From the NCBI GenBank assembly GCA_905234235.1, contig CAJOHN010000005.1, positions 1 through 64,000 of the forward strand: a DNA stretch of 64,000 bases. Direction: 5' to 3'. The notes under the pieces were generated by a model. It searched no databases. It was given only the letters and a program-made list of their open reading frames with translations, and was not told the origin of the DNA. Source of the stretch: an uncultured Selenomonadaceae bacterium (GTDB taxonomy: Bacteria > Bacillota > Negativicutes > Selenomonadales > Selenomonadaceae). The first letter of the stretch is position 1, and every line of letters begins with the position of its first letter. Positions 1,600 through 64,000 of this stretch are shown piece by piece. The translations under genes were made by a program, and so were the position numbers.

Positions 1600-2241
1600 T
1601 TAACGTGCAACGGGTTCAAAAATAATCATGTTGTTGCGAATCATGGCGCGTTCTGCTTGACTGGCTTTAACATCCTCGTCGGGCGCACGGGCGATTAGGT
1701 CGGCAATGCGAATCTGCGCGGGCATAAGTCTATCAGCCACGACGCAGGCAGTTTTATCGCCAAAAGCTCCCGCGTGTACAAAACCCCTGCACGTCCCGCG
1801 AATATCAATCGAGCCGCCCGCTATGATTTGTGCGCCGGGATTGACATTGCCGCAAATCAACACCGAACAATTAGCCTTAACCTCCTGCCCGCCGCGTATC
1901 GTCCGATTTATCACCATCATTTTTTGAGCGTCTTCGACTTTTGCCTTAGATTTCTGCGCGGGAGTTTTAACCGTATCGCAAGAAGGCGGGGCAAGATTAG
2001 GACGTTTAAGCTCAGTACTGAAAAGCATTCCGTGACGATGGAACATGCGGCGCAATGCCTCGTTCTGGTCTTCGGCGAAGTAACCCTTCGGAACAAAAAC
2101 CGTCGTCCCGCGTATAAAGAAACTGTCGCCCGATTCAAGCTTGTTCAAAAGATTCGCCTGTACGTCGTCGAAACTCGCGCCCTTAGCAAAAGTCAGTTGC
2201 AAGCCGTATTTGAGCCCCTTAATCGTTACTATATCGTTCAT
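1600..2241 (-). CDS. minC: Septum site-determining protein MinC
   Basis: The 213-residue protein has an N-terminal FtsZ-inhibiting domain and a C-terminal right-handed beta-helix (about residues 110-200, with GGSIDIRG and GGDKT-like turns) that binds MinD and dimerises. I start it at ATG 2241 (MNDIVTIKG), preceded by GGCGGTGATT; the frame is open to 2310, but the extra 23 residues have no counterpart in the family. First gene of minCDE, divergent from the carboxyltransferase gene at 2418. Confidence 0.9.
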   Translation of the reverse strand: MNDIVTIKGLKYGLQLTFAKGASFDDVQANLLNKLESGDSFFIRGTTVFVPKGYFAEDQNEALRRMFHRHGMLFSTELKRPNLAPPSCDTVKTPAQKSKAKVEDAQKMMVINRTIRGGQEVKANCSVLICGNVNPGAQIIAGGSIDIRGTCRGFVHAGAFGDKTACVVADRLMPAQIRIADLIARAPDEDVKASQAERAMIRNNMIIFEPVAR

Positions 2242-2356
2242 TTTAATCACCGCCTGTGTTCTAAAAATGTTTCCCGCCTGCATTATACATAATCTGCCGC
2301 CGCTTGCCAATATTCCTTACAGATTTTTTTCAGCGAATGTCTTTTAGCCGCGCAGA

Positions 2357-2385
2357 TTGACTTTGCAAAGCGGAAAATCTATAAT
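2357..2385 (+). promoter_or_regulatory. Promoter of the carboxyltransferase gene
   Basis: TTGACT (2357-2362), 17-nt spacer, TATAAT (2380-2385), about 30 nt before the start at 2418. One copy of the iterated octamer (CCGCGCAG, 2348-2355) abuts the -35 box. Confidence 0.65.
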
Positions 2386-2417
2386 CGTTGCAGAAAAATT
2401 TTTAGGAGGGTGTAATT

Positions 2418-3803
2418 ATGGCGAAACCGCTTCAAATAATGGAGACCGTCCTGCGCGACGGGCATCAATCGTTAATGGCAACGCGGATGCGCTATCGTCA
2501 AATGGAGCCGATGTTGGCGAGCCTCGATAAAATTGGTTACAAAGCTCTGGAGGGTTGGGGCGGCGCGACTTTCGACAGTTGCTTGAGATTTTTAGACGAA
2601 GACCCCTGGGAACGCCTCGACAATCTTAAAGCCAATCTCAAAAACACGCCGATTCAAATGCTCCTGCGCGGACAAAATCTTTTGGGCTACAATCACTATT
2701 CCAACGACGTTGTAGAAAAATTCGTTCAGCACGCTTCGGCGCACGGCGTAGGAGTTTTCCGCATTTTCGACGCTCTTAACGACGTTCGCAATCTCCGTGT
2801 CGCGATTAAAGCCGCGCTTGCCTGCCCCGAAAAGCCCGAAGTTCAAGGCTGCCTCGTCTACACAATCAGCCCCGTCCACAGCAACGAGACTTTTGTTGAG
2901 CTCGCTAGAGAGTTGCAGGAGATGGGTTGCCACAGCGTTTGTATCAAGGACATGTCGGGCTTGCTCGCTCCGTACGCCGCTGACGACCTCGTCCGCAAAC
3001 TTAAAGCCGCGTTGGATATTCCCGTCGAACTCCATACCCATTGCACGTCGGGTTTCGGGCACGCAACTTATCTCAAAGCGATTGAGGCGGGCGTTGACAT
3101 CGTAGACTGCGCGTTAAGCCCGTTTAGTAGCGACACTTCCCAACCTTGCACTGAAACTATCGTCGCAATGCTCAAAGGTCACGAACGCGATACCGGACTC
3201 GACCGCCAAGCTATGGTGCCTATCGCTAAACATTTTCTCGGCGTCAAGCAGGAACTTATTAAAGAGTTTGGGCTTAAGGGCTACTTCGATATTAACGTCA
3301 ATGTCCTCGACTTCCAAATCCCCGGCGGCATGCTCTCCAACCTCGCCAATCAGCTTAAAGAAGCCGGCATGGAAGATAAATATCAAGACCTCCTCGACGA
3401 AATGCCTCGCGTCCGCGCAGATGCCGGTTATCCGCCGCTCGTTACGCCGTCAAGCCAAATCGTCGGCACTATGGCTACCTTTAACGTCATGGCGGGCGAA
3501 CGTTATAAAATGGTTCCAAACGAATTCAAAGACCTCGTGCGCGGCAAATTCGGGCGTACTTCCGTCCCCGTCGACCGCGACTTTATCACTAAGACCCTTA
3601 AAATCCCCGAAGACCAAATCATTGAAGATTGCTCGATTGAAGACGCTAAGGGGCAGACTTTCGCGCAGTTCAAGGACGAACTCATCAATAAAGGCTTCCT
3701 CAATCCGTCTGATGAAGACGTTCTGAGCTATGCCCTCTTCCCGCAAGTCGCCGAAGAATTTTTCAAGAAACATTACAAGCAAATTACCGCTTACAGAAAA
3801 TAA
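2418..3803 (+). CDS. Pyruvate/oxaloacetate carboxyltransferase (oxaloacetate decarboxylase alpha-like, without biotin domain)
   Basis: The 461-residue product begins with the conserved ETVLRDGHQSLMATRMR block of the carboxyltransferase TIM barrel. It has the carbamylated-lysine context CIKDMSG and the metal-binding HTHC near residue 205. OadA and pyruvate carboxylase subunit B normally run to about 590 residues with a C-terminal biotinyl domain (MKM motif). Here the protein stops after the PYC_OADA helical domain, so the biotin carrier must be a separate protein, as is common in Veillonella-type decarboxylase complexes. It transfers carboxyl groups between oxaloacetate/pyruvate and biotin. 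RBS AGGAGGG; monocistronic, with terminator at 3825-3854. Confidence 0.85.
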   Translation: MAKPLQIMETVLRDGHQSLMATRMRYRQMEPMLASLDKIGYKALEGWGGATFDSCLRFLDEDPWERLDNLKANLKNTPIQMLLRGQNLLGYNHYSNDVVEKFVQHASAHGVGVFRIFDALNDVRNLRVAIKAALACPEKPEVQGCLVYTISPVHSNETFVELARELQEMGCHSVCIKDMSGLLAPYAADDLVRKLKAALDIPVELHTHCTSGFGHATYLKAIEAGVDIVDCALSPFSSDTSQPCTETIVAMLKGHERDTGLDRQAMVPIAKHFLGVKQELIKEFGLKGYFDINVNVLDFQIPGGMLSNLANQLKEAGMEDKYQDLLDEMPRVRADAGYPPLVTPSSQIVGTMATFNVMAGERYKMVPNEFKDLVRGKFGRTSVPVDRDFITKTLKIPEDQIIEDCSIEDAKGQTFAQFKDELINKGFLNPSDEDVLSYALFPQVAEEFFKKHYKQITAYRK

Positions 3804-3824
3804 ATTTTGTCCGATAAAAAATTT

Positions 3825-3854: not shown

Positions 3855-4506
3855 AATTCCTTATGGATTTAAGCTCGGCGATTAAATTTTTCTTTAGCTT
3901 ATCTTCCAAATCCTCCAAAGTCTCGGCGTCGAAAGCGTAGGTGACGTTCGGAGCCCCGTTAATGCGCGTCTCGCCGCTGAATTCGTCGCTGTAAATGTTG
4001 TACGCCAGAACAAAGTCGCTGTTAATCGCGAAGTCAACATAATTGATGACGATAAAAGAGCCGTTGGTAATTTCGACGGGCGCGGCGGGGCTTATAAAAA
4101 GTTCAAAGCCTTCAAGCGTCGCGGGAAGATTTTTTCCGTAATTCCACGTGTCGATTTTTTTCTCGCTTAGGAATCTGTTGAGCGGCTTACTTTTAATCCC
4201 GCGCAGATTTTTTATCACGCCGTTAAGCTCCGCGTCAATCAGCTCTTTGAAACGATTAAAATCCGTCGTAAAAAAATTCGTCAAACAAAATTCCGTCAAG
4301 CCGATTCGCTGGCTAACTTTGAACTCCATCGTTTCCTCGTGAAAGTAAACCGTAACCGCACAATGCGCCGCGTCATCAGCATAAACAAAAAAAATAAATT
4401 TATCATCGTCGACCGCGCAGATTTTTTCCAACGTAAAGCCTTCAATCTCGGCGGGCAAATCTCCAAAGCTCAGTGCCGCGATTTTATTTTTAGTATCGTC
4501 CTTCAA
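3853..4506 (-). CDS. Conserved hypothetical protein
   Basis: I do not recognise this 217-residue protein. It is rich in Phe, Asp and Glu, has no signal peptide or membrane helix, and shows two halves of similar flavour: an LPAEIEGF-type phrase near the start echoed by LPATLEGFELF in the middle, suggesting an internal duplication. The start is TTG at 4506, seven bases after the upstream TGA, with RBS AGGGAG formed by the end of the radical SAM gene. A longer ATG ORF (4596) would overlap that gene by 86 nt and is less likely. Translationally linked to the upstream gene. Confidence 0.6.
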   Translation of the reverse strand: MKDDTKNKIAALSFGDLPAEIEGFTLEKICAVDDDKFIFFVYADDAAHCAVTVYFHEETMEFKVSQRIGLTEFCLTNFFTTDFNRFKELIDAELNGVIKNLRGIKSKPLNRFLSEKKIDTWNYGKNLPATLEGFELFISPAAPVEITNGSFIVINYVDFAINSDFVLAYNIYSDEFSGETRINGAPNVTYAFDAETLEDLEDKLKKNLIAELKSIRN

Positions 4507-4510: not shown

Positions 4511-6106
4511 TCACTCCCTGCATACCCCACAACGCTTGCACCCGTCAAAACAAGGCGTCGTTGATTGAAGCGCGGCGGCTTTCTTATATTCCGCAATCAA
4601 ATATTCCTTGCCGAAACCTTGATTCAAAAAGTCCCAAGCCAAATTTTCTTCCAAGCCACGCTCGCCAAGATATTTTTCCTTATCGAGATTGAAATTTTTT
4701 ATGAAGTCCTTCTGGCTCTCCGACTGCAAAATTATTTCCGAAAGTTTTCTGTCGCCGCGTGAAAGTATCGCTTGAACTTCCGCCGATTTTATCGACTCCG
4801 AAATTATTTCCACGCCGCGCAGTGTCTTCAAACTCCCGCGCAGAATTTTAAACGCCGCGTCCAAATATTTTTTACCTGCGAACGGTGCCCATTGAAACGG
4901 CGTAAACGGCTTCGGCACAAACGGATTCACGCTCAACGTTAATCGCCCGTCGCAAAATTTTTTTATCCGTGTCGATAACTCCGCTATCGCCTCAACGTCC
5001 GTAAGTTCCTCGAACGGCAGCCCAACCATAAAGTACAGCCGAAAATTTTTGACGCCCGCTTTAAGTCCGAGTTGAATCGCCGTGAATATATTTTCTTCGG
5101 TTATGCCCTTGTTGACGACGCGCCGCATTTTATCCGAACCGACTTCCGGCGCGATTGTTAAAGTTTTCAGCCCGCTCGCCACTAACGATTTGACAAGCTC
5201 CTCCGTCACCGAATCTGCGCGGAAACTCGCTACCGACATTTGAAGACGTTCGCTAATGATAAATCTGCACAGCTCATCAATCTGCGGATAATCGGAAATC
5301 GCCGCGCCCATTAAGCCGATTTTTTTATGGAATTGTTTCGCCGCGAGAATCTCTTGCTTTAAAAAGTCCAACGAACGGTTGCGAGGCTTACGAAAACAAT
5401 AGCCAGCCATGCAAAACCGACAATGCCGCCCGCAACCCCGCGCAGTCTCAATCAAGTACATATTAAACTCGGCGTCGTCAGTCAAAACCGTCGAGTGCGC
5501 CGGATAATCATCAATATTCTTAAGCCACTGCCGCGAAACTTTTTTAGGAAAACGCGGAACGTAAACGCCTACCACTTCCGATAATTTTTCCAAACGTTCA
5601 AGGCGCGGGAGATTTTCGGAGGAAATAAACGCGTCGATAAGTTGCGGCAATATGACTTCGCCCTCGCCGATAATAAACGCGTCAAAAATTTCAGCCAACG
5701 GTTCGGGATTAAACGTCGCGCAAGCCCCGCCCGCAATGATTAACGGATCAAAGGCAGTACGTTCAGAGGCGCGAGGGTTTATTTTGCCAAGCCTAAGCAT
5801 TTTGACGACGTTAAAATAATCCGGCTCGAAACTCACTGCAAAGCCTACGATTTGAAATTTATTCAGCGGAGTTTGATTCTCGATGCTCAGTAAGTCATGG
5901 GATTCGGGCAAAAAAAATCGTTCGCAAGAAATATCCTTGTGCGCGTTCAAAAGTTGGTAGATGATATGAATGCCTAAGTTCGACATGCCGACGCGGTAGC
6001 AATTCGGGTACGCCAGCGCAAATTTGATACGCCCGCCGGAATTTGAAACCAGATTAATTTCGCGAGCGGCTTTTTGCTTCAAGAAATCTTGATTGGAATG
6101 ATTCAT
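4511..6106 (-). CDS. B12-binding-domain radical SAM protein
   Basis: The 531-residue protein has an N-terminal cobalamin-binding-like Rossmann domain (YPNCYRVGMSNLG, then IIAGGACATFNPEP and FIIGEGE), followed by a radical SAM core with the [4Fe-4S] ligands CGRHCRFC near residue 230. It ends in a second Cys cluster, GCKRCGVC, which overlaps the start region of the next gene. It is a paralogue of the larger protein at 14502-17063 (same family as TIGR03960), but without the DUF2344 extension. The reaction is unknown. The start ATG at 6106 is preceded by GGAGGAAGTC. Confidence 0.8.
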   Translation of the reverse strand: MNHSNQDFLKQKAAREINLVSNSGGRIKFALAYPNCYRVGMSNLGIHIIYQLLNAHKDISCERFFLPESHDLLSIENQTPLNKFQIVGFAVSFEPDYFNVVKMLRLGKINPRASERTAFDPLIIAGGACATFNPEPLAEIFDAFIIGEGEVILPQLIDAFISSENLPRLERLEKLSEVVGVYVPRFPKKVSRQWLKNIDDYPAHSTVLTDDAEFNMYLIETARGCGRHCRFCMAGYCFRKPRNRSLDFLKQEILAAKQFHKKIGLMGAAISDYPQIDELCRFIISERLQMSVASFRADSVTEELVKSLVASGLKTLTIAPEVGSDKMRRVVNKGITEENIFTAIQLGLKAGVKNFRLYFMVGLPFEELTDVEAIAELSTRIKKFCDGRLTLSVNPFVPKPFTPFQWAPFAGKKYLDAAFKILRGSLKTLRGVEIISESIKSAEVQAILSRGDRKLSEIILQSESQKDFIKNFNLDKEKYLGERGLEENLAWDFLNQGFGKEYLIAEYKKAAALQSTTPCFDGCKRCGVCRE

Positions 6107-6162
6107 GACTTCCTCCCAAAATTTTTTAGCATTATATCAGAAAAAATCTGCGCGGGCAAAGA

Positions 6163-6790: not shown

Positions 6791-7126
6791 ATGCCGATTA
6801 TTGAGCAGAAAACGGTTACAGCTGAAAAGGGCAAAGGGAAAATTTTTATCACGCACCTGTTGACGCCTGCGGAAATGGCGGGCAAGTGTGCAATGTTCGC
6901 GAGTGTAAAAATCCCCGTCGGCGCGGCTATCAATGTTCATAAGCACGTTGGCACGACCGAGACTTATCACATACTGCAGGGCACGGCGACTTATACCGAT
7001 AACGGCGAGACTTACACGGTTAAGGCGGGCGATACGACTTTCTGCGCGGACGGCGACACTCACGGGATTGAAAACGCGGGCGACGACGATTTAATTTTTA
7101 TCGCGCTGATTATCAATACCAAGTGA
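6791..7126 (+). CDS. Cupin-domain protein
   Basis: The 111-residue single-domain cupin has cupin motif 1 as G-x5-HxH-x-E (GAAINVHKHVGTTETYHILQG), with metal ligands His, His and Glu, and motif 2 with GDTHGIENAG. Small cupins of this kind bind a metal and often act as sugar isomerases, dioxygenases or storage proteins; the substrate cannot be told. Start is the ATG at 6791, behind GGGAGG; an upstream TTG (6776) has no RBS. It follows the response regulator by 18 nt. Confidence 0.8.
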   Translation: MPIIEQKTVTAEKGKGKIFITHLLTPAEMAGKCAMFASVKIPVGAAINVHKHVGTTETYHILQGTATYTDNGETYTVKAGDTTFCADGDTHGIENAGDDDLIFIALIINTK

Positions 7127-7776: not shown

Positions 7777-8460
7777 ATGTTTGACATAGAAAATTTGCGG
7801 CAAGAACTTTTTAAACTGCAAGACGAACCTTATCGGGAGTTTCAAGCTAAAGTCGTCCCGACCGTCGCCAAAGAAAAATTCATCGGGATTCGGACGCCGG
7901 TACTTAATCGTTTCGCTAAAAAATATTTTAAAGACGCCGACGCAAAAGGATTCTTGAACGACTTGCCGCATAAATATTTTGAAGAAAATTCTATTCACAC
8001 GCTGTTAATCTCCGCGATTAAAGATTTCGACAAATGCTTGAGCGCGACGAAGATTTTCTTGCCTTACGTCGATAACTGGGCAACGTGTGATTCAATCTCG
8101 CCGAAAGTTTTTAAGCGACATCCAATCGAACTCGACGCAGAAATTTCAACTTGGCTGGCTTCCGATAAGCCTTACACTGTCCGTTTTGCGTTGAATATGT
8201 TGCGACTATTTTATCTCGACGAAAATTTTAACGTAAAATATCTTGAGCGGGCGGCGGTTAAATCGGAGGATTATTACGTCCAAATGATGGCGGCGTGGTT
8301 CTTAGCGACGGCTCTCGCCAAACATTACGACGCGACGATTAATTTATTGGAGACGTTCAGATTGTCGCCGCAAATTCAAAATAAAACAATTCAAAAGGCG
8401 TTGGAGAGTAAGCAAATTACAGCTGAACAAAAAATTTATCTGCGCGGACTAAAATTATGA
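7777..8460 (+). CDS. AlkD-like DNA alkylation repair protein
   Basis: The 227-residue all-helical protein belongs to the HEAT-like AlkC/AlkD family: FIGIRTPVLNRFAKKY near residue 33, then VDNWATCDSISPKVF, and the tail of short helical repeats. Family members are glycosylases that remove cationic alkylated bases without flipping them. RBS AGCAGGAGG. It overlaps the next gene by 4 nt (ATGA), forming a three-gene operon with a short-chain dehydrogenase and a glycosyltransferase; the linkage suggests only co-transcription, not shared function. Confidence 0.85.
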   Translation: MFDIENLRQELFKLQDEPYREFQAKVVPTVAKEKFIGIRTPVLNRFAKKYFKDADAKGFLNDLPHKYFEENSIHTLLISAIKDFDKCLSATKIFLPYVDNWATCDSISPKVFKRHPIELDAEISTWLASDKPYTVRFALNMLRLFYLDENFNVKYLERAAVKSEDYYVQMMAAWFLATALAKHYDATINLLETFRLSPQIQNKTIQKALESKQITAEQKIYLRGLKL

Positions 8461-9176
8461 AGACGGCGATAATCACGGGCGGCACGTCGGGTATCGGGCT
8501 CGCGACCGCTAAAATTTTCTTGGCGCACGATTTTAATTGCGTACTTGTCGGCAGAAGTTCCGAGCGGTTCGGTAATATTAAATCTGAACTCAGCGGGCGC
8601 GTTGAATTTATATCGGCGGACGTTCGGCGCGTCGAAGATTGCAACAAAATTATTTCGCGGACGGTTGAAATTTTCGGCGGCGTCGACGTTTTAATAAACA
8701 GCGCGGGCATTTATCACGAAGGCGCAATAACTTCAACCGACGAGAAAACTTTCGACGATATTTTTTCAACCAACGTCAAGGGGACTTTTTTTATTGCGCG
8801 GGCGGCGGTTAATGAATTGATTAAAAGTCGCGGCGCGATTATCAACGTCGCAAGTGACGCGGGGCTTAAGGGAAATTATTTCTGCGCGGCATATTCGGCT
8901 AGCAAGGGGGCTATCGTCGCGTTTACACGCTCTCTCGCGCTTGAATTGGCTAGTTTTTCAATCCGTGTGAATTGCGTTGCCCCCGCCGATATTCTGACGC
9001 CCCTGACGCTCAACCAACTTAAAAATTCCGGCTCGACATTGGAAGACCTTGCGAAAATTTATCCGCTCGGCAGAATCGGGACGGCTGAGGAAGTCGCGGA
9101 GGCTATTTACTTTTTATCAACAGCAAAATTTATCACGGGCACGATTTTAAGCGTCGACGGCGGACTTACAGCGTGA
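8457..9176 (+). CDS. Short-chain dehydrogenase/reductase (3-oxoacyl-ACP reductase-like)
   Basis: The 239-residue classical SDR has the nucleotide-binding TGGTSGIGLA at residues 7-16, NSAGIY for the adenine pocket, and the catalytic Ser plus YSASK (Tyr-x3-Lys). The C-terminal FITGTILSVDGGLT is typical of FabG-like reductases acting with NAD(P)H. Substrate unknown; FabG proper usually sits in a fatty-acid cluster, so this is probably a paralogue. It overlaps both neighbours by 4 nt. Confidence 0.85.
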   Translation: MKTAIITGGTSGIGLATAKIFLAHDFNCVLVGRSSERFGNIKSELSGRVEFISADVRRVEDCNKIISRTVEIFGGVDVLINSAGIYHEGAITSTDEKTFDDIFSTNVKGTFFIARAAVNELIKSRGAIINVASDAGLKGNYFCAAYSASKGAIVAFTRSLALELASFSIRVNCVAPADILTPLTLNQLKNSGSTLEDLAKIYPLGRIGTAEEVAEAIYFLSTAKFITGTILSVDGGLTA

Positions 9177-10240
9177 AGATTCTAATTTTATCGGCGTCAA
9201 TCGGCTCAGGGCATACCAAAGCGGCGCAAGCTCTTCAAAAAATCTTCGGGGAATCCGCGCAGGTTATCGACTTCATGGATAAAAAAATTTCAACGTTGAA
9301 TTGGCTGACGAAAAAAATTTACCTCGCCGCACTACGATTTATCCCCGACCTCTACGACAGAATTTATAAGTTCGCCGACGGACGGAAAATCGGTGTCTCA
9401 GCAAGATTCTTAAGCTCCGCGCTGATGTATTTGCCGTTCACGCGCCTGCTAAATAAATTTCAGCCCGAAGTCGTAATTTGCACTCATCCATTCCCAGAAG
9501 CCGCCGCGTCGTTATGGAAATTTCTCCACGCTAAATCTGCGCGGAATTTTTTATCGGCAACCGTGCTAACCGATTACTCCCTGCACGAAATTTGGATTTT
9601 CGGCGAAGTCGACGCGTACTTTGTCGCTACCAAAGATATGAAACGCGAACTCGCCAGCCATTGCCGCGCAGGTCAGAAAATCTTCGCAACTGGCATTCCC
9701 ATTGATGAAAAATTCGCCGCCGTCAATAAAATTTCTTCCGCAGTCACGACAATTCTAATCATGGGCGGCGGGCTCGGTCTCGGCTCAATCGAAGAAACGC
9801 TCCTTGAACTCAATAAAGTCCCCAAGCCACTTAAAATCATCGTCGTCGCGGGGCAAAATGAAAACCTCCTAGCGCGGCTCAAAAAAATAAAAATCTCGCA
9901 CGCGTCGGAAGTGCTCGGCTACGTTTCAGATGTCGATAGGCTCATGGCGCAGGCTGATTTACTAATCACAAAACCCGGCGCGCTCACTATGTCGGAAGCT
10001 TTCGCGGCAGGCGTCCCTCTAATCCTCCACGCGCCAATACCCGGTCCGGAGGCTCTCAATGCGGCTTACGCTACGGCTCACGGCGCGGCTATCGAGGTCG
10101 GCAATAAAAAAATTTCCAACGTCATTCAAGAGCTCCTCGATAATCCTGCGCGGCTCGAACAAATGAAACTCAACGCAAAAAAAATCTCCCAACCATCAGC
10201 GGCGAGAGAAATTGTTCGTCAGCTCAAAAGTTTTTTATAA
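9173..10240 (+). CDS. Processive diacylglycerol glycosyltransferase-like GT28 protein
   Basis: The 355-residue protein starts with LSASIGSGHTKAAQAL, the N-terminal signature of the MGDG synthase/UgtP family, and has the MurG-like C-terminal donor-binding half (LIMGGGLGLGSIEETL, then DLLITKPGALTMSEAFAAGVPLI and GPEALNA). Such enzymes move UDP-sugars onto diacylglycerol at the cytoplasmic face of the membrane. Start is GTG at 9173, overlapping the SDR stop. It ends against the convergent pssA gene (6-nt overlap). Confidence 0.8.
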   Translation: MKILILSASIGSGHTKAAQALQKIFGESAQVIDFMDKKISTLNWLTKKIYLAALRFIPDLYDRIYKFADGRKIGVSARFLSSALMYLPFTRLLNKFQPEVVICTHPFPEAAASLWKFLHAKSARNFLSATVLTDYSLHEIWIFGEVDAYFVATKDMKRELASHCRAGQKIFATGIPIDEKFAAVNKISSAVTTILIMGGGLGLGSIEETLLELNKVPKPLKIIVVAGQNENLLARLKKIKISHASEVLGYVSDVDRLMAQADLLITKPGALTMSEAFAAGVPLILHAPIPGPEALNAAYATAHGAAIEVGNKKISNVIQELLDNPARLEQMKLNAKKISQPSAAREIVRQLKSFL

Positions 10241-11698: not shown

Positions 11699-12423
11699 TA
11701 GCTTTTTTGGTTATGGACTTTCCAAACGAATTTCGGCAAGGCTAACAATCTTCCTGCGCGAGAGGGTTGCAACATTGCTCGGAATAACCATTCGAGACGC
11801 GCTTTCTGCATCCACAACGGCGCACGTTTGACAACTCCAGCCATTACGTCAAAAGTCCCGCCCACGCCGATTGATACGGGGATTTGCAGTTCGTCTTTGT
11901 ACTTGAATAGCCATTTCTCCTGCTTCGGTACGCCCAATGCCACAAGTAAAATATCTGCGCGGGAACTTTTTATCTGCGAAATAATTTCTGGCTCATCAGC
12001 AGGCTTAAAGTAGCCGTTGCGCGTCCCAACAATTTCTATGCCGTGATAAAGTTCTTCCGCTTTTAACTTTGCCTTATCAGCGATACCCGGCGCGGCTCCG
12101 AATAAGAAAAATTTCCAAGCCCGCGCAGGCGCAACTTTCATCAGCTCTTGAACTAAATCAAAACCCGCAACACGTTCCGGCATTTGCTTACCGAGATGAC
12201 GCGCCGCCCAAACTGTCCCCGCGCCGTCGGGCACAACTAAATCCGCCGCGTTCAAGATTCTTTTCAACTCCGCGTCGTGCGTGGCGTTCAAAAGCATTTC
12301 CGCGTTGGCTGTCGCTACCATTGACGGTTCTCCCGCGCAGATTAATTCTTCCACACGTTCAACCGCTTGCGTCATCGTCACCGCGTCAACTTTAACGCCT
12401 AAAATTTCTACTCGTTCGATCAT
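11698..12423 (-). CDS. WecG/TagA/CpsF family glycosyltransferase
   Basis: The 241-residue GT26 protein has the family blocks MVATANAEMLLNA, VVPDGAGTVWAAR, FLFGAAPGIADKAK and DILLVALGVPKQEKWL. Members transfer ManNAc or ManNAcA from UDP to a lipid-linked sugar in wall or capsule polymer synthesis. The basic C-terminal tail anchors it to the membrane. It starts one base after the glmS stop, so UDP-amino-sugar supply and use are co-expressed. Its stop codon lies inside repeat copy 1. Confidence 0.9.
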   Translation of the reverse strand: MIERVEILGVKVDAVTMTQAVERVEELICAGEPSMVATANAEMLLNATHDAELKRILNAADLVVPDGAGTVWAARHLGKQMPERVAGFDLVQELMKVAPARAWKFFLFGAAPGIADKAKLKAEELYHGIEIVGTRNGYFKPADEPEIISQIKSSRADILLVALGVPKQEKWLFKYKDELQIPVSIGVGGTFDVMAGVVKRAPLWMQKARLEWLFRAMLQPSRAGRLLALPKFVWKVHNQKS

Positions 12424-45252: not shown

Positions 45253-45258
45253 TTGTGA

Positions 45259-49363: not shown

Positions 49364-49898
49364 TAAAAAGTTCCTAATCGTCTTCGGAGTAACTTCTTTA
49401 GTCGCGCTGGCTGTTTTATTTTTAATCGGTCTTAGCGAAGATGATACGCCTGCATTGCCGCCGCCGTCGCCCGTAAAAAAAATCAGCGTCTACGTTTCGG
49501 GGCAAGTCAAAAATATTTCTGTTGTCGAACTCGAAGACACAGGCGATTTAAGATTTGTCGACGCCGTGAATAAAGCGGGAGGTTTAACCGAATTTGCCGA
49601 CACCGAAGCCGTTAATTTGGCTGAAACGCTCTCCGACGGGCAACATATTCACATTCCGACCAAAGAAATTTTTCTACAACAAAATATCGCCGCGCAGAGT
49701 TCAAGCGATCTCGTCAACATAAACACTGCCGACGCCGAACGCCTCGCCACGCTTAAAGGTATAGGTTTGGCATTGGCGCAGAGGATTATCGATTATCGCG
49801 AGCAAAACGGCGCGTTTAAGTCGATTGACGAGATTAAAAATGTTCGCGGCATCGGCGAGAAAAAATTTGCCGCCTTCAAAGATAAAATCACGATTTAA
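49356..49898 (+). CDS. comEA: ComEA-type DNA-binding competence protein
   Basis: The 180-residue protein has one N-terminal membrane anchor, a proline spacer, an SLBB domain (KISVYVSGQVKNISVVEL; FVDAVNKAGGL; GQHIHIPTK), and a C-terminal double helix-hairpin-helix (LVNINTADAERLATLKGIG; KSIDEIKNVRGIGEKKF). ComEA binds incoming double-stranded DNA on the outer face of the cytoplasmic membrane during transformation. The gene starts inside the serA stop (ATGTTTAA). The pairing with serA is odd; ComEC proper is not in the window. Confidence 0.9.
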   Translation: MFNKKFLIVFGVTSLVALAVLFLIGLSEDDTPALPPPSPVKKISVYVSGQVKNISVVELEDTGDLRFVDAVNKAGGLTEFADTEAVNLAETLSDGQHIHIPTKEIFLQQNIAAQSSSDLVNINTADAERLATLKGIGLALAQRIIDYREQNGAFKSIDEIKNVRGIGEKKFAAFKDKITI

Positions 49899-53417: not shown

Positions 53418-53937
53418 AAAAATTTATTTCAGCGGCGGCAACGTTCGTGAACTGCAGGAGATTTTTAGAGACTTGCCGGGCGTTGTGAGCGTTTTAATCG
53501 GGAAATTATCTGCGCGGAATGTTCACAGCTACATAAATCCCGAAATGCAGACGATTGAAGAAGTTCCGAGCGTCGAAATCGAATTCAATCCAAAGAAAAT
53601 GGATTTGTCGATGCTAATGGACGTGCTTTTTAATGTTTTGAATCCCTACGCCGACAAAACTTTGGGCGTTTACTATAATTCGGGTGAAGATGAGCCGCAA
53701 GTCGAATTGCACTTGAATTTTATCGCCAATCGAGGACGCGAGCCTGTTGTTTCAAAAGCTTGCCTGACGATCAACGACCCGAACATTGATAAGGTTGTGC
53801 GGAAATGTTTTGTAAGCGTTGGACGGCTGATAAATTTTACCGTCGCGCCGGAAGCCGAGCAAAATTTCCTGCGCAAGCACCCCGAAATAAAAACGGAGAT
53901 TGACTTGACAAAGCTAAAAACTTCCCTTAAATTTTGA
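53407..53937 (+). CDS. MsrA homologue lacking the catalytic cysteine
   Basis: The 176-residue protein aligns along most of its length with methionine sulfoxide reductase A: KIYFSGGNVRELQEIFRDLPGVVSV corresponds to the MsrA block around GGCFWGVE, and SVEIEFNPKKMDLSMLMDVLFNVLNPY to the following strand-helix. The invariant GCFW is replaced by GNVR, so the nucleophilic Cys is gone, and no other GCFW occurs. It cannot be a normal reductase; it may bind methionine sulfoxide or a partner. TTG start 53407, overlapping the ABC gene, RBS GGGGAGG. Confidence 0.65.
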   Translation: MYTKKIYFSGGNVRELQEIFRDLPGVVSVLIGKLSARNVHSYINPEMQTIEEVPSVEIEFNPKKMDLSMLMDVLFNVLNPYADKTLGVYYNSGEDEPQVELHLNFIANRGREPVVSKACLTINDPNIDKVVRKCFVSVGRLINFTVAPEAEQNFLRKHPEIKTEIDLTKLKTSLKF

Positions 53938-53956: not shown

Positions 53957-55042
53957 ATGCGCGAACGATTGGAGGAAAGGCGGCGGGAGTTCACAAGCAA
54001 AATGCGCAATCGGAAATTATTTTGGTCATTCATAATTTGTTTATTCATAATCACGGGTTCGCTAGCTCACATGGGATTCAATTCGGACTTCACGCGGCTC
54101 AAAGACGATTTGTCGTCGAACTTTAAATCTGAAGCAGTTTTGCCGACCTTCCAAAAGCCGACAACGATAATGTTAATGGGCATAGACGAACGCAAAGACG
54201 ACGTGGGACGCTCCGATACGCTGATGGTTTTGAATCTATCAAAGGATAAGGCGTCGCTGTTGACGATTCCGCGTGATACAATGGTTTATATCAACCGTCA
54301 CGGTTACCAAAAAATCAATGCGGCGTATGCATACGGCGGCGCGAAATTGGCGCGTGAAACCGTCGAGGAATTTCTCGGCATTGAAGTTGATTATTACGTC
54401 GCGATTAATAAGGCGCGTTTCGCTGAAGTTATTGACGCAATGGGCGGCGTAGATGTTTACATTGAGCGCGATATGTATTACGAAGACCCCTGGGACGATG
54501 ATGGGCTTGTTATTGATTTAAAGCAAGGGCGTCGGCACCTCAATGGCGATACAGCGATTCAATTCGTGCGTTTCCGTGACGCTGAGGGCGATGTCGGGCG
54601 TGTGCGTCGTCAACAAGCTTTTATGAGAGCCTGCGCGGACAGATTAAGCGAGCCGTCAATGTTGATTAAAATTCCTGAGCTGTTGAGTGTGGCGGTTAAG
54701 GCGATTGATACGGATTTAACTTCGGGCGAAATGTTAGCGGCGGCTGGTTCTCTTAAAAACGCGGAGACAAAAGACAATATTAAAACGGGCGTCGTGCCCG
54801 GCTGGTTGCAGTATATCAACGATGTCAGCTATCTGATTCCCAACGCCGAACGCTTAGGCGATGTCATGCGCGATAATCTTGGCTTTAAAGTTAATAAAAA
54901 ACACTTTGAGCAGTTGGCTTACGATTACGCTGAGGGCAATGACGCCGATTATTACGACGTGAATTTTAATCACAAAGGCGATTTGCGCTTGATGAATTAT
55001 TTAGACCGTCATAAGTTTGACTTGTCGGATAATGAACTTTGA
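53957..55042 (+). CDS. LytR-CpsA-Psr family wall-polymer ligase
   Basis: The 361-residue protein has one N-terminal membrane anchor and the LCP domain: IMLMGIDERKDDVGRSDTLMVLNL, TIPRDTMVYI, GYQKINAAYAYGG, VRFRDAEGDVGRVRRQQAFM (the Arg/Asp pyrophosphate site). LCP enzymes attach lipid-linked glycopolymers to peptidoglycan. Start ATG 53957 behind GGGGAGGTG. Terminator at 55053-55081. Confidence 0.92.
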   Translation: MRERLEERRREFTSKMRNRKLFWSFIICLFIITGSLAHMGFNSDFTRLKDDLSSNFKSEAVLPTFQKPTTIMLMGIDERKDDVGRSDTLMVLNLSKDKASLLTIPRDTMVYINRHGYQKINAAYAYGGAKLARETVEEFLGIEVDYYVAINKARFAEVIDAMGGVDVYIERDMYYEDPWDDDGLVIDLKQGRRHLNGDTAIQFVRFRDAEGDVGRVRRQQAFMRACADRLSEPSMLIKIPELLSVAVKAIDTDLTSGEMLAAAGSLKNAETKDNIKTGVVPGWLQYINDVSYLIPNAERLGDVMRDNLGFKVNKKHFEQLAYDYAEGNDADYYDVNFNHKGDLRLMNYLDRHKFDLSDNEL

Positions 55043-55501: not shown

Positions 55502-55942
55502 TTAGCGCGTTTCAATTTTAAGTTCTTCGGGCTTCTGCGCGGCGTAGGGGTGCTTGCCGTCCGCGAAGACGTGAAGTTTTCTAAACAAATCCGCGCCGAG
55601 TTTATTTTTCGGCAACATGCCCTTAACCGCGTGCTCAATAACACGTTCGGGGAATTTTTGCATCCATTCGCCCGCAGTCGCGTACTTGCCGCCGCCGAGA
55701 TAGCCGGTGTGATGGAAGTAAACTTTTTTGCGGAGCTTCTTGCCGGTGAAGACAGCCTTAGCCGCATTGATAATAACAACGAAATCTCCCGTGTCGACGT
55801 GAGGAGTAAATACAGGTTTATTTTTGCCGCGCAGAACTTTAGCGACTTCGGCGGCGAGGCGTCCGACGGTTTTGCCTTCGGCGTCAACGAGATACCATTT
55901 ACGCTCGACGCTGCCCGCCTTTGCCATGAACGTATCCTTCAT
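55502..55942 (-). CDS. rplM: 50S ribosomal protein L13
   Basis: The 146-residue protein has [39 protein letters not shown] and [12 protein letters not shown]. Start ATG 55942 ([11 protein letters not shown]) behind TGGAGGAA; the longer open frame has no RBS. First gene of rplM-rpsI, with a promoter at 56026-56054. Confidence 0.98.
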
Positions 55943-56311: not shown

Positions 56312-57403
56312 TCATCTTACGTAAATTGTAAGTGTATTATAAGCCAGCGATTGCAACGTTAAATTAGCAGTCGTCGCGGCTTGAAGTTCATTAAAAAGCG
56401 TTTGCGGAGAGCCGCCGTAATTTGCATTGAAAACAGCGCGCCCGCCTTCGTAACTGGAAAGATTTAAATTTTTGACGCGGGGATTTTTAACGAGCGCACT
56501 CTGCACGAGATTAATCTTAGAAAAGTCCGCGCCGTAAACAATAATCTCGACGCCTTGCCGCGAAGTGTACACGCCCGTTATCTGTTCGACGAAATAATTT
56601 CCGACTTGTTCGCCCGCCGAGCTCAATGCCTTTTTAGCGGCGATTGCCTGCGAATTGTCGTAAGCCGAGCCGTATTGCCCGTCTGCCGCGATAATCTGCC
56701 CCGTCTTGACGATAAACATTTTTGCTTCGACGCGAGCCCGACAAGCTTGCATATTCGTACGCTGATTGCCCGGCAAATAATTCCCCATATCGCCGACGCC
56801 CTCGCTGAAACTTTCGCCGACAATCATAATATCCGCGCCGAATTTTTCAGCCGCCGACTTCATCTGCGCGGCATTCATCGCCATAGGATTTTGATAACTG
56901 AGCCCCGTGCCGACTTCGATAACGTTAGAAAAGCCCGCGTTGAGGAGCGTCTTGACAATCGCAACTTCGCCGCCCGAACCATTAACATTGTAATTCAAAT
57001 GCTGTTCGGGGACGTAGACGGCAATTTTCGGGTTGCGGAGCCGGACGTTGATAATCCCAAGCCGCGTCAGTTCATTCATGAGTTTTGAATTTGGTTGGTC
57101 GTCGACGGTAGCATTAATCGTTACGCGCCAACCGCCCGCAAATTGTTCGCGACTTATAACGCTGTACTCATTGACGAAGCCGCGAGACTGCGTATAAATT
57201 TCGTCACTGATTAACATGCTGTTTTGAACCAAAGTTTCCGCGTCAACTAAAATTCCGACAGTATCCTCGACAGCAACGCGAAGCGCATCATTCTCCGCGT
57301 CGACAGGCGTTAATCCCGTGCCCGTTACTGTAACATTTTTTGCCAACGCCGTCGCACTAAAAATCATCAGCAACGCCAGCAATGTTAATAAAAATTTTTT
57401 CAT
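56312..57403 (-). CDS. FlgT N-domain-like exported protein
   Basis: The 363-residue protein has a signal peptide (MKKFLLTLLALLMIFSATALA) and a first domain (about residues 22-115) of the FlgT-N type: VTGTGLTPVDAENDALRVAVEDTVG, then GFVNEYSVISRE and WRVTINATVDD. The rest is a TolB/CsgG-like region (NPKIAVYVPEQ; IMIVGESFSEG) and an unrecognised C terminus. FlgT is a flagellar outer-ring protein; role here is inferred. RBS AAAGGAG; translated just after the CsgG-like gene. Confidence 0.6.
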   Translation of the reverse strand: MKKFLLTLLALLMIFSATALAKNVTVTGTGLTPVDAENDALRVAVEDTVGILVDAETLVQNSMLISDEIYTQSRGFVNEYSVISREQFAGGWRVTINATVDDQPNSKLMNELTRLGIINVRLRNPKIAVYVPEQHLNYNVNGSGGEVAIVKTLLNAGFSNVIEVGTGLSYQNPMAMNAAQMKSAAEKFGADIMIVGESFSEGVGDMGNYLPGNQRTNMQACRARVEAKMFIVKTGQIIAADGQYGSAYDNSQAIAAKKALSSAGEQVGNYFVEQITGVYTSRQGVEIIVYGADFSKINLVQSALVKNPRVKNLNLSSYEGGRAVFNANYGGSPQTLFNELQAATTANLTLQSLAYNTLTIYVR

Positions 57404-58597: not shown

Positions 58598-59641
58598 ATG
58601 AAGAAAATTTTTTTAGCAGTACTGTTGCTGGCGACGTTCCTAATCGGAGGTTGCGGCGGACAATCTAAGGAGGAGCCACAAGCCGAAGTCAAGGAAGAAA
58701 CTCAAGCGGAAGCGGCTCCCGCGCAGGACGTTAAAGGCAATTTAAAAATTTCCATGCTGAATGTCGGGCAGGGCGACGCGATTTTAATTCAAACCGGCAA
58801 GCAAACAATTCTTATCGACACCTCTGATACCGACGAACGCGACCTTTTAGTCAAGGAACTGGAAAAACTTTCCGTCACGAAGATTGACAAACTTATTTTG
58901 ACGCACCCCCACGCAGATCATATCGGTAGCGCGAAGGCTTTAATCAACCCCAGTAAAAAGGAACTCGGCGCGAATCCTTACCTTGAAAAAATTTCTGTCG
59001 CCGAAGTTTACGACAACGGCATTGCGTCAAATTCCCCGCTGTATAAAAGTTATCTGAAGGCTATCGACGCTAAAAAAATTACTCATCAAAGCTTGAAGGC
59101 GGGCGATACTCTTGACTTCGGCGGCGGCGTTAAATTCAATGTCCTCTACCCGACAACTGAACTCGTCGAAGCTGTCAATAACGGCGGCTGGAAGTCCGAC
59201 CCCAATAACGAATCCGTCGTCGGCAAACTCACTTACAAAAAATTTTCCATGATGTTCACCGGCGACGCGGAAAAAGATGTCGAGGCGTCCCTCTTAACAA
59301 ATAATAAGACTAAAGCTCTAAAATGCGACGTGTTGAAGAGCGGGCATCACGGCAGTTACACGGCGTCTACAAAAGATTTTATCGCGGCGGTTAATCCCAG
59401 TGTCGTCCTAATCAGCGCAGGTCCCGTCGAGGAACGTCGCAATACTTACGGGCACCCGCACCTTGAACCGCTTGAAAATTATTTGGCGGCGGGCATTGAC
59501 AAGAAAAATATTTACTGCACGCGTTGGAACGGCACAATCACGATAATCAGCGACGGCAAAGATTTTTCCGTTCAGCCTGAGCAAAAGGAGGATTGGTTAG
59601 ACAAATGGATAACGAAGAAGCACAAAGACAAAAAGAAATAA
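58598..59641 (+). CDS. ComEC-like metallo-beta-lactamase-fold lipoprotein
   Basis: The 347-residue protein has a lipoprotein signal (LIGGC), a charged spacer and the MBL fold seen at the C terminus of ComEC: ISMLNVGQGDAILIQTGKQTILIDT, the Zn motif HPHADHIG, MMFTGDAEKDVE and KSGHHGSYTAST. It lacks the ComEC membrane channel, so it is a free periplasmic or surface hydrolase. It is followed by DUF3006 (36-nt overlap), a frequent partner. Start ATG 58598 behind GAGGATG. Confidence 0.85.
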   Translation: MKKIFLAVLLLATFLIGGCGGQSKEEPQAEVKEETQAEAAPAQDVKGNLKISMLNVGQGDAILIQTGKQTILIDTSDTDERDLLVKELEKLSVTKIDKLILTHPHADHIGSAKALINPSKKELGANPYLEKISVAEVYDNGIASNSPLYKSYLKAIDAKKITHQSLKAGDTLDFGGGVKFNVLYPTTELVEAVNNGGWKSDPNNESVVGKLTYKKFSMMFTGDAEKDVEASLLTNNKTKALKCDVLKSGHHGSYTASTKDFIAAVNPSVVLISAGPVEERRNTYGHPHLEPLENYLAAGIDKKNIYCTRWNGTITIISDGKDFSVQPEQKEDWLDKWITKKHKDKKK

Positions 59642-59826: not shown

Positions 59827-60876
59827 TTGCTGAAAAAATTTTTAACGTGTTTCAGTCTGTTGCTTATTCTAATCTGCGCGGAGACGGCTCAAGCTAAATC
59901 TGTCGAACTCACGGAGATAACTGCCTTCGACCTCGATAACGAAACCGTGCGGATTGAAATTTCCTACAAAGGCGGGCAACTCTACGTTGACGACGTTTCA
60001 ACCGAATTACGCGACAGGCTCCTTTACATCAACATTGAAAATACTTCGGCGGGCAGAATAAGCCGCATTTCCGGCACGCAAATTCAACCCGACGCAAAAG
60101 ATTTAATCGAAAAAATTATCGCCAACGAAACTAAGATAAACCACACGCGAGTTCAAATCCATTTGCGTTCGGCGATTGATGACGGCGTTAAAGTTTATCT
60201 GGAGCCCGCCAATCGTTCCGAAAAAAAAGACGCCCGCATTGTCATCGACGTGAAAAAAATTTTCATTCAAGAGAATGTTTGGACGCAGGAAATTTATGAC
60301 GTTGGCGGGAAGATTATCGTGCTAGACCCCGGACACGGCGGTTCAGATACGGGCGCAGTCGGTCCGACGGGCGTCACGGAGAAAGCTGTTTCGCTGGCAG
60401 TTTCACTGAAAGCGCAGAGACTTTTGACGGATTCGGGCTACCAAGTTGTTATGACGCGCACGACCGATATTGACGTTGCCGCGCCGGGCGTCCCCGATTC
60501 TACAGAACTTCAAGCGCGTGTCGATAAGGCTCCGTCGAACGCCGCCCTGTTTATCAGCGTCCATTGCAACGCCTTCAACGCCTCTGCAAACGGCATGGAA
60601 ACTTTCCACGCACCAACCGCCGTCAAAGGCGCACGCCTCGCCCGTCTCCTTAACGAAGAACTCGCCAGACTCGGCGGCTTGAATAATCGCGGCGTCAAGG
60701 CGGCAAGATTTTACGTCATGACCCATTCGCAATGCCCCGCGTCGCTTATCGAACTCGGCTTTATCACCAACCCTCGCGAAGAAAAATTATTGGCAAGCAA
60801 TGACTATCAGCAGAAGCTTGCGCAAGCAATCACAAACGCCGTTAATCGCTATTTCAATCAAGGAGGATCTGATTAA
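59827..60876 (+). CDS. N-acetylmuramoyl-L-alanine amidase (AMIN + Amidase_3)
   Basis: The 349-residue exported protein has a signal peptide ending TAQA, an AMIN domain (about residues 25-140) and an Amidase_3 catalytic domain with VLDPGHGGSDTGAVG, the Zn ligands His/Glu/His (SLAVSLKAQ context; SVHCNAF) and the closing LIELGFITNPREEKLL. It cleaves the amide between MurNAc and L-Ala during cell separation. TTG start 59827. Confidence 0.92.
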   Translation: MLKKFLTCFSLLLILICAETAQAKSVELTEITAFDLDNETVRIEISYKGGQLYVDDVSTELRDRLLYINIENTSAGRISRISGTQIQPDAKDLIEKIIANETKINHTRVQIHLRSAIDDGVKVYLEPANRSEKKDARIVIDVKKIFIQENVWTQEIYDVGGKIIVLDPGHGGSDTGAVGPTGVTEKAVSLAVSLKAQRLLTDSGYQVVMTRTTDIDVAAPGVPDSTELQARVDKAPSNAALFISVHCNAFNASANGMETFHAPTAVKGARLARLLNEELARLGGLNNRGVKAARFYVMTHSQCPASLIELGFITNPREEKLLASNDYQQKLAQAITNAVNRYFNQGGSD

Positions 60877-62681: not shown

Positions 62682-62735
62682 GTTAAAATCTCCCAAAAAA
62701 AATTTTACACACACGCTGATTTTATCATTTGAAGT

Positions 62736-63104
62736 TTACTTTTGGTCAAGGTCGGGACGCAAATTTTTCGCGCCGCCCAAGTACACGTGATGAATTTTAT
62801 TTTGCTCCTTATCGGTTTCCGCCAAGACTAAAACGCGAACGCAACGCGCCAAAGAATCCTCAACTGCAGGCTCTCGCGTGTCGAACAGCGGCACTAATCT
62901 CAAGGCGGGCAGTTGTCTTATGGCGGAGCTCGGAAAGGCGGCTGTTAAATCTTCCGTCGTCGAAAAGATTATCGCGCCGATATTTTCTGCTCTCAATTCG
63001 TTCAGCGATAAAATTTTAGTGACGAGATGCCGCGCAGATTGCCAAATTTTTTCCTTTGAATTTTCGTCGACCGTAACCGCGCCCCGAATCCCGCGCATTG
63101 CCAT
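62736..63104 (-). CDS. aroH: Chorismate mutase AroH
   Basis: The 122-residue AroH-type enzyme has MRGIRGAVTVDENSKEKIWQSARHLV and the C-terminal RCVRVLVLAETDKEQNKIHHVYLGGAKNLRPDL, the Firmicutes trimeric fold. It rearranges chorismate to prephenate. Start ATG 63104; AAGGAG lies 8 nt upstream. Confidence 0.93.
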   Translation of the reverse strand: MAMRGIRGAVTVDENSKEKIWQSARHLVTKILSLNELRAENIGAIIFSTTEDLTAAFPSSAIRQLPALRLVPLFDTREPAVEDSLARCVRVLVLAETDKEQNKIHHVYLGGAKNLRPDLDQK

Positions 63105-63116
63105 TGAAACCACTCC

Positions 63117-64000
63117 TTAAATCTTGTACTTCTCTTTTATCTGCAACTTGACAGTCTCATTCGCCAAAAAGTCGTCGTAGCTCGAAATTCTATCAACCGT
63201 ACCTTGCGGCGTGATGTCGATTATTCGATTGGCGATGGCGCGGATAAATTCTCTGTCCTCGTCGACAAAAATAATCGTGCCGGGAAATTCAGCCAAACTT
63301 TTCTCCAAAGCCTCAATCGTCGGCAAGTCGAGGTTGGCAGTCGGATTGTCAAGCAATAAAAAATTCGCCGTGCCGTCCGCTAACTTTTCAAACTCAGCCT
63401 TAGCCGCCGCGCCCGTGTATACTCTCGGCAAGTAAAAAATTTTCGCGCCGTCAGAAAATTCTAACCGCCCGCGTTGACAACCGCCCGTCGTGTCGTGATT
63501 CTGATAAGCCGTCGCCAAAGCCTTAAGCAATTTCGATTTGCTACGCTCGTTGCGCCCGACGAACGCTACCTTTTGCCCCTGCCGTATCGTGAAACTTACA
63601 TCTTTGAATAAAGGCTCGCCGTCGCGGTGTTTAAGTAAACTGTTCGCCTCAAGGACAGCCGGAACTGCGCCCGATGGCGTCGGCGGTAAAAGCTCCGCGC
63701 AATTAATTTTTATCGGCTCAATTTGTTCGTCGCCCAACTTAATCAATCGCGAACAAGTTTCCTTCAAAAAATATCTGTCGCTGCTGACGATGACGCTCGT
63801 TAAAGCTTCGTGTTCGTTTAGGAATTTTATCAGCCAATCGACGCCATCCGCGTCAAGATTTTTAGTCGGTTCGTCGAGGAGTAAAATTATATCGTTATCG
63901 CTGAGTCCGCGCAGTGCCCGCTTAAGTTTTTCAATCGCCGACATCTCCGCCATGCGCACTTCCGAAAAATCGGCGTAGACATTCCCGTTGACCGAATGAA
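63117..64000 (-). CDS. Degenerate ABC-F-type protein (partial, 5' end beyond window)
   Basis: The frame is open to the window edge. The first ATPase half keeps Walker B as IILLLDEPTKNLD but the preceding signature reads EVRMAEMSAIEKLKRAL, not LSGGE. The second half has a worn P-loop (GRNERSKSKLLKAL, lacking the usual G-x-G-K-S/T) and a Walker B of FLLLDNPTANLD with Asn replacing Glu. ABC-F proteins act on ribosomes; this one is unlikely to hydrolyse ATP at the second site. It lies 3 nt before aroH. Confidence 0.7.
   Translation of the reverse strand, partial: HSVNGNVYADFSEVRMAEMSAIEKLKRALRGLSDNDIILLLDEPTKNLDADGVDWLIKFLNEHEALTSVIVSSDRYFLKETCSRLIKLGDEQIEPIKINCAELLPPTPSGAVPAVLEANSLLKHRDGEPLFKDVSFTIRQGQKVAFVGRNERSKSKLLKALATAYQNHDTTGGCQRGRLEFSDGAKIFYLPRVYTGAAAKAEFEKLADGTANFLLLDNPTANLDLPTIEALEKSLAEFPGTIIFVDEDREFIRAIANRIIDITPQGTVDRISSYDDFLANETVKLQIKEKYKI

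Follow-up and report, generated by a model that had tools for sequence, protein, structure and literature searches.

DNA-uptake words have been described in two bacterial families, as the DNA uptake sequences (DUS) of Neisseriaceae and the uptake signal sequences (USS) of Pasteurellaceae, and a 2025 paper names these as the only families known to recognize such motifs (PMC12616744). DUS occur in dialects that are described as following phylogeny (PMC3630211), and USS are reported to be flanked by two downstream A/T-rich regions (PMC12616744). According to the literature, known uptake words often form terminators (PMC13020248; PMC1852404), with USS present in up to 22% of terminators in some species (PMC13020248), and are more frequent in one orientation within genes (van Passel 2008, PMC2346458). 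In cyanobacteria, the highly iterated palindrome HIP1 (GCGATCGC) is also reported near once per kb, with alternate HIPs in some species, and is said to track methyltransferases (PMC4390886). Here, we examined the octamer CTGCGCGG, a candidate DNA-uptake word, in a stretch of 64,000 nucleotides (the window; positions 1 to 64,000 of contig CAJOHN010000005.1, assembly GCA_905234235.1) from an uncultured bacterium of the Selenomonadaceae, and followed it through the host genome and its genus.

The closest experimental background comes from Veillonella parvula, a negativicute in which deletion of a type IV pilin-like locus yielded no transformants; the same report describes a screen that returned no word of at least 10 bases with at least 100 copies and left shorter words open (PMC5397411). 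Among the papers listed in searches of the open-access literature, subscription papers not being covered, we found no earlier report of an uptake word in Negativicutes, Veillonella, Selenomonas, or Firmicutes/Bacillota, or of the CTGCGCGG octamer.

Abundance and DNA-level maintenance of the octamer

The window holds 69 exact copies of CTGCGCGG, 38 on the plus strand and 31 on the minus strand, compared to 3.5 expected on both strands under a second-order Markov model. A preliminary description of the window had counted at least 67 copies (37 and 30), which our recount bears out. Its claim of an excess over chance also stands, although its expectation of one or two copies was too low, and the span it gave (1714..63914) is right at the end, where the last copy starts at 63907, but begins too late, the first copy lying at 588. 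The genome carrying the window (2,148,753 bases in 46 contigs, 85.7% complete) contains 2007 copies (1022 + 985 on the two strands), or 934 per Mb, versus 278 (145 + 133) for a control with the letters reversed. In a 451-kb sample of this genome, CTGCGCGG is the most over-represented 8-mer under Markov orders 2, 3, and 4, with 461 copies against 25, 25, and 51 expected, respectively. This great two-strand excess, with hundreds to thousands of copies per genome, is a feature of DUS- and USS-type words.

The A/T-rich 5′ flank noted in the window is evident as well. A accounts for 54–56% each at positions −2 and −1, and T directly precedes the word at 57–59%. The flanks are one-sided, with T or C before the word and a slight avoidance of T after it, and G is nearly absent directly before the word, at 2 of 461 and 2 of 589 sites in the genome samples and at none of the 69 in the window. 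The form AATCTGCGCGG makes up 19 of the 69 window copies, and the extended form of the word is about AAYCTGCGCGGV.

Within predicted genes, copies occur in every codon phase on either strand (126, 85, 80, 68, 49, and 15 for the six combinations), and 38 more are intergenic, with a density of 1.24 per kb in intergenic regions versus 1.01 per kb in genes. Over 50 synonymous shuffles within genes, the 426 genic copies were reduced to a mean of 31.6 and a maximum of 45. The use of six phases, the intergenic copies, and the collapse upon synonymous shuffling indicate that CTGCGCGG is a property of the DNA and not of the encoded proteins. Codon or peptide bias, which the preliminary description had named as a possible source of the excess, did not account for it, and protein sequence and codon usage were rejected as the origin of the word on the basis of the shuffling and the six-phase use.

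Orientation relative to the gene strand shows no preference (198 versus 228, p 0.16), so that CTGCGCGG lacks the commoner genic orientation of DUS- and USS-type words; quintiles of position within genes gave p values of 0.06 and 0.31. The replication-strand polarity that marks Chi and KOPS (FtsK-orienting polar sequences) is absent, with 281 copies on the G-rich and 297 on the C-rich strand and a correlation with GC skew of −0.04 (115 bins of 5 kb). Each contig examined carries the word on both strands (68 forward and 73 reverse in contig C1). Taken together, the six phases, the loss upon shuffling, and the missing strand polarity argue that CTGCGCGG is neither a codon artifact nor a polar site of the Chi/KOPS type. 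The strongest local strand imbalance was observed in contig C4 of the host genome at 40–50 kb, with ten words on one strand versus one on the other.

The arrangement of copies was studied in 587 kb of the host genome holding 589 copies. Close neighbors are rare, with 22 separated by <100 bases versus 52.5 expected and 7 by <50 bases versus 24.9 expected, and the spacing becomes indistinguishable from random from ∼500 bases upward. The closest pair in this sample starts at 4815 and 4836 of the window, 21 bases apart. Such mutual avoidance would follow if a single tag were enough for each fragment.

A second over-represented word, AAAATTTT / AAAAATTTTT, was observed in the window, in the host genome, and in many relatives, where it heads the k-mer lists. 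AAAATTTT has 876 two-strand counts in the 451-kb sample (as a palindrome, 438 places) versus 175 to 583 expected, depending on model order, with 718 in genes versus 310 after synonymous shuffling. In the same 451 kb, strong depletion affects several GC palindromes (8-mers containing CCGCGG, GGCGCC, CGCGCG, or GACGTC, for instance) and also TTCGAA, which suggests present or past restriction systems.

Dialects and site conservation within the genus

The main new result is that the word has dialects inside the genus. Our set comprised 66 genomes including the host, with CTGCGCGG counted in 60 (all except G099–G104), CTGCGCGA, CCGCGCGG, and CTGCGCAG counted in all 66, and the reversed pattern serving as the control for every count. 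The alternative forms first surfaced in k-mer counts on stretches of relatives. Asymmetric words were called as dialects at a ratio to the reversed control of at least 2.5 and a density of at least 250 per Mb, thresholds picked after the counts had been seen, and the palindromic dialects (G053, G037, and G049) were called by hand. By these calls, 27 of the 60 genomes use CTGCGCGG, 7 use CTGCGCGA, 2 use the palindrome CCGCGCGG, 1 uses the palindrome CTGCGCAG, and 23 use none.

Copy numbers reach 2103 among the CTGCGCGG-rich genomes (G010) and range from 1242 to 2335 in the seven CTGCGCGA genomes. CCGCGCGG has 1451 sites in G053 and 934 in G037, the next genome having 232, and CTGCGCAG has 477 sites in G049, the next genome having 98. 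All four dialects are GC-rich and have a central GCGC in common. Among the CCGCGCGG sites examined in G053 and G037, 61 of 88 extend to the 10-base palindrome TCCGCGCGGA; because palindromes necessarily yield symmetric flank tables, these were given no weight. In 39 genomes from outside the family and within the same class, where only this word was counted, CTGCGCGG reaches at most 102 per Mb versus 934 in the host.

Six of the 60 genomes have at most 50 copies of CTGCGCGG (G013 3, G008 5, G058 8, G048 31, G028 41, and G003 50). Those without a dialect include intermediate ones, such as G040 (816 versus 377 for the control) and G031 (519 versus 199). Two genomes, G026 and G052, are raised over controls in both asymmetric words (1058 and 1244 copies of CTGCGCGG; 625 and 772 of CTGCGCGA) and are perhaps two-dialect species or in transition. 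We considered CTGCGCAG as the dialect of G058, where it is raised but sparse (80 sites in 2.9 Mb versus 12 for the control, 5 of the sites lying in a single 6.4-kb contig), and did not count it. The same pattern holds for CCGCGCGG in G057 (113 versus 7) and G030 (161 versus 26). The outlying G003 (L031) contains repeats such as GGATCTGA, with 39 copies in one 20-kb stretch but just 2 in the 27 kb that follow, perhaps reflecting repetitive genes rather than a word.

The dialects are distributed by phylogeny, as are those of DUS- and USS-type words. In a tree of PilB, PilQ, PilT, and PilC proteins from 43 genomes, with missing data allowed and G003 chosen as the root, the seven CTGCGCGA genomes form one clade and the two CCGCGCGG genomes another, each with support of 1.0. 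The CTGCGCAG genome is drawn, with no support value printed, as the first branch in the clade with most CTGCGCGG users. One CTGCGCGG user, G023, falls inside the clade of CTGCGCGA users (support 0.992, the inner branch having only 0.134). As judged from this one tree of functionally linked genes, CTGCGCGG probably predates the divergence of the CTGCGCGG and CTGCGCGA clades, and CTGCGCGA is probably of single origin. Three genomes that group with the host (G033, G031, and G055; support 0.965) reach only ∼148 to 247 CTGCGCGG copies per Mb versus 934, a pattern suggestive of recent word decay that could reveal how sites disappear.

We compared individual CTGCGCGG sites of the host in orthologous genes aligned by protein. 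In nine same-dialect relatives, 65 of 151 aligned sites are kept exactly, and shifted control positions carry the word in 0 of 871 cases. Where the encoded residues are identical, eight same-dialect relatives keep 49 of 63 sites versus 1348 of 3043 GC-matched 8-mers, and the distant G023 keeps 5 of 7 versus 52 of 314. The CTGCGCGA genomes keep only 3 of 123 sites versus 627 of 4593 matched 8-mers (p 4e-5; all of these site counts pool relatives with shared ancestry, which are not independent, and Fisher p values accordingly overstate significance). CTGCGCGA stands in place of CTGCGCGG at 13 of these 123 sites (control, 1 of 702), and the partner's own word is found at 3 of 55 sites in CCGCGCGG genomes and 2 of 18 in the CTGCGCAG genome (controls, 0 of 309 and 0 of 101). 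The simplest reading of these alignments would be that something reads the word and keeps the right one, and that some sites convert in place when the dialect changes.

Presumed uptake machinery and competing explanations

As previously described, the window encodes a ComEA-like protein. The gene (49320..49898, plus strand; SLBB and helix–hairpin–helix) is presumed to belong to the DNA-uptake machinery and itself contains a copy of CTGCGCGG (49690..49697, minus strand). Elsewhere, the host genome encodes ComEC, a PilQ-type secretin, and a PilB-type ATPase, so that a type IV pilus, ComEA, and ComEC occur together, as in hosts of DUS- and USS-type words. The gene upstream of the secretin was taken for pilP from its sequence and has no Pfam match. 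A host cluster runs pilT, pilC, an ftsE-like gene, and then four prepilin-like genes at L195:13032-14950, several of these labels having been assigned by eye. Across the genus, ComEC was detected in 62 of 66 genomes, the PilQ-type secretin in 65 (none above the curated cutoff), and PilC in 60; PilC was not matched in six genomes, among them the word-poor G008 and the word-rich G012, G041, and G056. A full-length PilB-type match is absent in G028.

The first prepilin-like gene shares 37 to 65% identity between the host and 15 relatives; for PilC, 14 of these relatives show 73 to 84% identity to the host, and G023 shows 55%. This pilin is perhaps GspH-like, judging from weak family matches (GspH in 11 of 16 and ComGD in 9 of 16 members, NCBIfam, best 2e-6), and the label rests partly on a C-terminal pattern. 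Its matches to pilins in the PDB cover the N-terminal helix only. By similarity, minor pilins were found mainly in relatives of the CTGCGCGG clade, plus G049 and G023. The N_methyl family (PF07963) was rejected as a pilin finder, as it matched in only 2 of 18 genomes.

The ftsE-like gene between pilC and the minor pilins (L195:12305-13027, labeled by eye) recurs in several CTGCGCGG-clade genomes. In five CTGCGCGA genomes, an ftsE-like gene and, it seems, an ftsX-like gene lie near pilC, with no pilins there. Two or three Tad/Flp pilus gene sets, also identified by eye, occur in L196, L197, and L198 in addition to the type IV pilus genes.

We propose, with a probability of roughly 0.55, that CTGCGCGG serves self-recognition during DNA uptake and is read by the type IV pilus/ComEA/ComEC machinery encoded in the genus. 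In our judgment, the dialects, the site conservation, and the competence genes fit an uptake word better than any rival. We infer that a pilin reads the word, that uptake is biased toward it, and that uptake maintains it. Under this proposal, the type IV pilus would carry a surface receptor, most likely a minor pilin, that binds CTGCGCGG on free DNA; tagged DNA of the same kind would preferentially be pulled in, transferred via PilQ, ComEA, and ComEC, and incorporated by recombination. Such preferential uptake and recombination would favor tagged alleles, such that copies would build up to about one per kb wherever the protein code allows, and crowding of copies would bring no gain. A changed receptor preference would then move a clade to a new dialect. 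More tentatively, and at odds that we place slightly below even, this large genus of uncultured diderm Bacillota may have independently evolved a DNA-uptake language of its own, which would be the third overall and the first beyond the Neisseriaceae and Pasteurellaceae, with at least four GCGC-centered dialects, two of them palindromic; its receptor may read two half-sites and switch by swapping a half (CTGC, CCGC, or TCGC).

Several observations weigh against an uptake word. The preliminary description, which had left the choice between an uptake and a HIP1-like word, is supported in part: the word proved genuine, two-stranded, maintained at the DNA level, and genome-wide, but the terminator use of many Neisseria and Haemophilus words is absent. 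The copy at 45239..45246 (minus strand, intergenic) does lie in a terminator-like hairpin, as had been reported, but this hairpin (45232..45254, minus strand) holds one single copy and folds no better than shuffles (z −0.09). In the 587-kb sample, such hairpins contain 4 of 589 CTGCGCGG copies versus 2 of 749 copies of six control 8-mers, indicating no terminator habit, and inverted pairs are not favored either (3 of the 8 neighboring pairs within 60 bases), so that the inverted pairs forming terminators in DUS- and USS-type words are missing. In contrast to the DUS and USS motifs in the papers cited, two of the dialects are perfectly palindromic, and 23 of 60 genomes were assigned no dialect. 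One-mismatch neighbors of CTGCGCGG are mostly at or below expectation in the 451-kb sample, the clear exceptions being mainly CTGCGCGA (62 versus 29 expected) and CGGCGCGG (177 versus 71). At identical residues, the loss of CTGCGCGG in CTGCGCGA genomes is not significant alone (3 of 24 kept versus 581 of 2048, p 0.11), and loss does not exceed that of matched 8-mers in CCGCGCGG genomes (3 of 55 kept), the CTGCGCAG genome (1 of 18), or word-less relatives (0 of 55), with p values of 0.27, 0.71, and 0.26, respectively. No gene separates word-rich from word-poor species: ComEC, the secretin, and PilC are near-universal in the genus and are retained in the word-poor G013 (3 copies) and G058 (8 copies), so the machinery does not predict the word and was rejected as a predictor. 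Finally, no minor-pilin cluster was seen adjoining pilC in the five CTGCGCGA genomes examined, and no receptor was identified.

The main rival is a HIP1-like word, in which a DNA methyltransferase together with mismatch repair, or another DNA-maintenance protein, favors the octamer, the dialects track methyltransferase specificity, and uptake is uninvolved. Such an origin would be in keeping with four GC-rich dialects that all have a central GCGC, with copies that keep apart below ∼200 bases, and above all with the palindromes CCGCGCGG, mostly extending to TCCGCGCGGA, and CTGCGCAG; palindromy in two of the four dialects lends this alternative some probability. We nevertheless regard it as unlikely, since the dominant word is non-palindromic with one-sided flanks, and the palindromic character of HIP1-like words is shared by neither CTGCGCGG nor CTGCGCGA, being confined to the dialects of G053, G037, and G049. 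The distribution of C5 methyltransferases may also speak against it: no match was detected in 11 of the 27 CTGCGCGG genomes, several of them incomplete and with N6/N4 methyltransferases not searched, and this set includes G010 with its 2103 copies and G043 (94% complete, 1354 copies). One of the seven CTGCGCGA genomes, G019, is also without a C5 methyltransferase match, and a single partial match was obtained in the host genome.

A Chi-type tag for recombination or repair, or some other protein-binding word spread over the chromosome and read intracellularly, would fit a GC-rich 8-base word of high density that is conserved at the DNA level, and appears less likely still. Chi and KOPS are polar, and Chi in Escherichia coli is sparser than one per kb, whereas CTGCGCGG is denser, shows no GC-skew polarity, and occurs on both strands in every contig examined. 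There is practically no room left for an origin of the word in base composition, codon pairs, or peptide preferences. The codons and dinucleotides of CTGCGCGG are available in a genome of 47% GC, but codon-pair preference alone is insufficient, as it would not give six phases; synonymous shuffling removes most genic copies, intergenic density is at least equal to genic density, and same-dialect relatives keep the sites beyond GC-matched 8-mers.

Window copies and comparison with described systems

In the window, the 38 plus-strand copies lie at 588..595, 1714..1721, 1954..1961, 2664..2671, 5215..5222, 6148..6155, 7042..7049, 8440..8447, 8882..8889, 9537..9544, 10146..10153, 11955..11962, 12923..12930, 14805..14812, 16688..16695, 16886..16893, 25994..26001, 26268..26275, 26521..26528, 28806..28813, 29726..29733, 29800..29807, 31313..31320, 32182..32189, 34214..34221, 34698..34705, 34991..34998, 40101..40108, 41666..41673, 42995..43002, 45929..45936, 50685..50692, 52206..52213, 53510..53517, 54631..54638, 55535..55542, 56864..56871, and 59874..59881. 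The minus-strand copies, besides those in the hairpin and the comEA-like gene, lie at 1251..1258, 2348..2355, 3413..3420, 4199..4206, 4413..4420, 4815..4822, 4836..4843, 5438..5445, 9255..9262, 9664..9671, 12121..12128, 12333..12340, 14562..14569, 19535..19542, 21648..21655, 25626..25633, 29311..29318, 32014..32021, 36722..36729, 37277..37284, 40452..40459, 42146..42153, 52435..52442, 52819..52826, 53300..53307, 55827..55834, 58719..58726, 63030..63037, and 63907..63914. The copies at 2348 and 6148 fall between genes, as had been noted. The sparse stretch seen earlier at ∼17–25.6 kb does hold only 2 copies versus 9.4 expected, but an equally sparse stretch arises somewhere in 12% of random placements; the stretch is not significant and contains the housekeeping genes TyrS, YebC, RuvC, RuvA, and DnaB. 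The closest named match found for DnaB, at 64% identity, is from an uncultured Selenomonadales.

Like the DUS of Neisseriaceae, which is read by ComP, CTGCGCGG occurs at about one copy per kb on both strands, in genes and between them, has dialects that are one or a few bases apart and follow phylogeny, and is accompanied by type IV pilus and ComEC machinery. One DUS-bearing species has been described with two dialects, to which G026 and G052 may be compared. CTGCGCGG differs from DUS in its unrelated sequence, its 8-base core versus 10–12 bases, its lack of inverted-pair terminators, its two palindromic dialects, and its distant lineage. With the USS of Pasteurellaceae it shares a short core with an A/T-rich flank and many copies per genome, USS having two types by subclade, although here the flanking bias is strongest on the upstream side and terminators are unused. 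HIP1 and the alternate HIPs are similarly GC-rich and near once per kb, with other words in some species, and the word is palindromic in three genomes here; unlike HIP1, the main word is asymmetric, and no C5 methyltransferase is common to the word-rich genomes. The type IV pilin-like uptake genes recall the competence locus needed for transformation in the diderm relative Veillonella parvula. CTGCGCGG resembles DUS and USS on most computable features but departs from both in terminator use and gene orientation, and we do not file it as a member of either family.

If CTGCGCGG is indeed an uptake word, it would be the third such case, and one from a remote lineage that offers dozens of related species and dialect switches at various depths, opening comparative tests of the origin, upkeep, and change of uptake words beyond two families. 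If it is instead HIP1-like, it would be an asymmetric word of that kind outside cyanobacteria and would inform the continuing debate on what HIP1 does. In both cases, these results suggest that self DNA is marked and offer a rule that can be tested in attempts to transform these uncultured bacteria.

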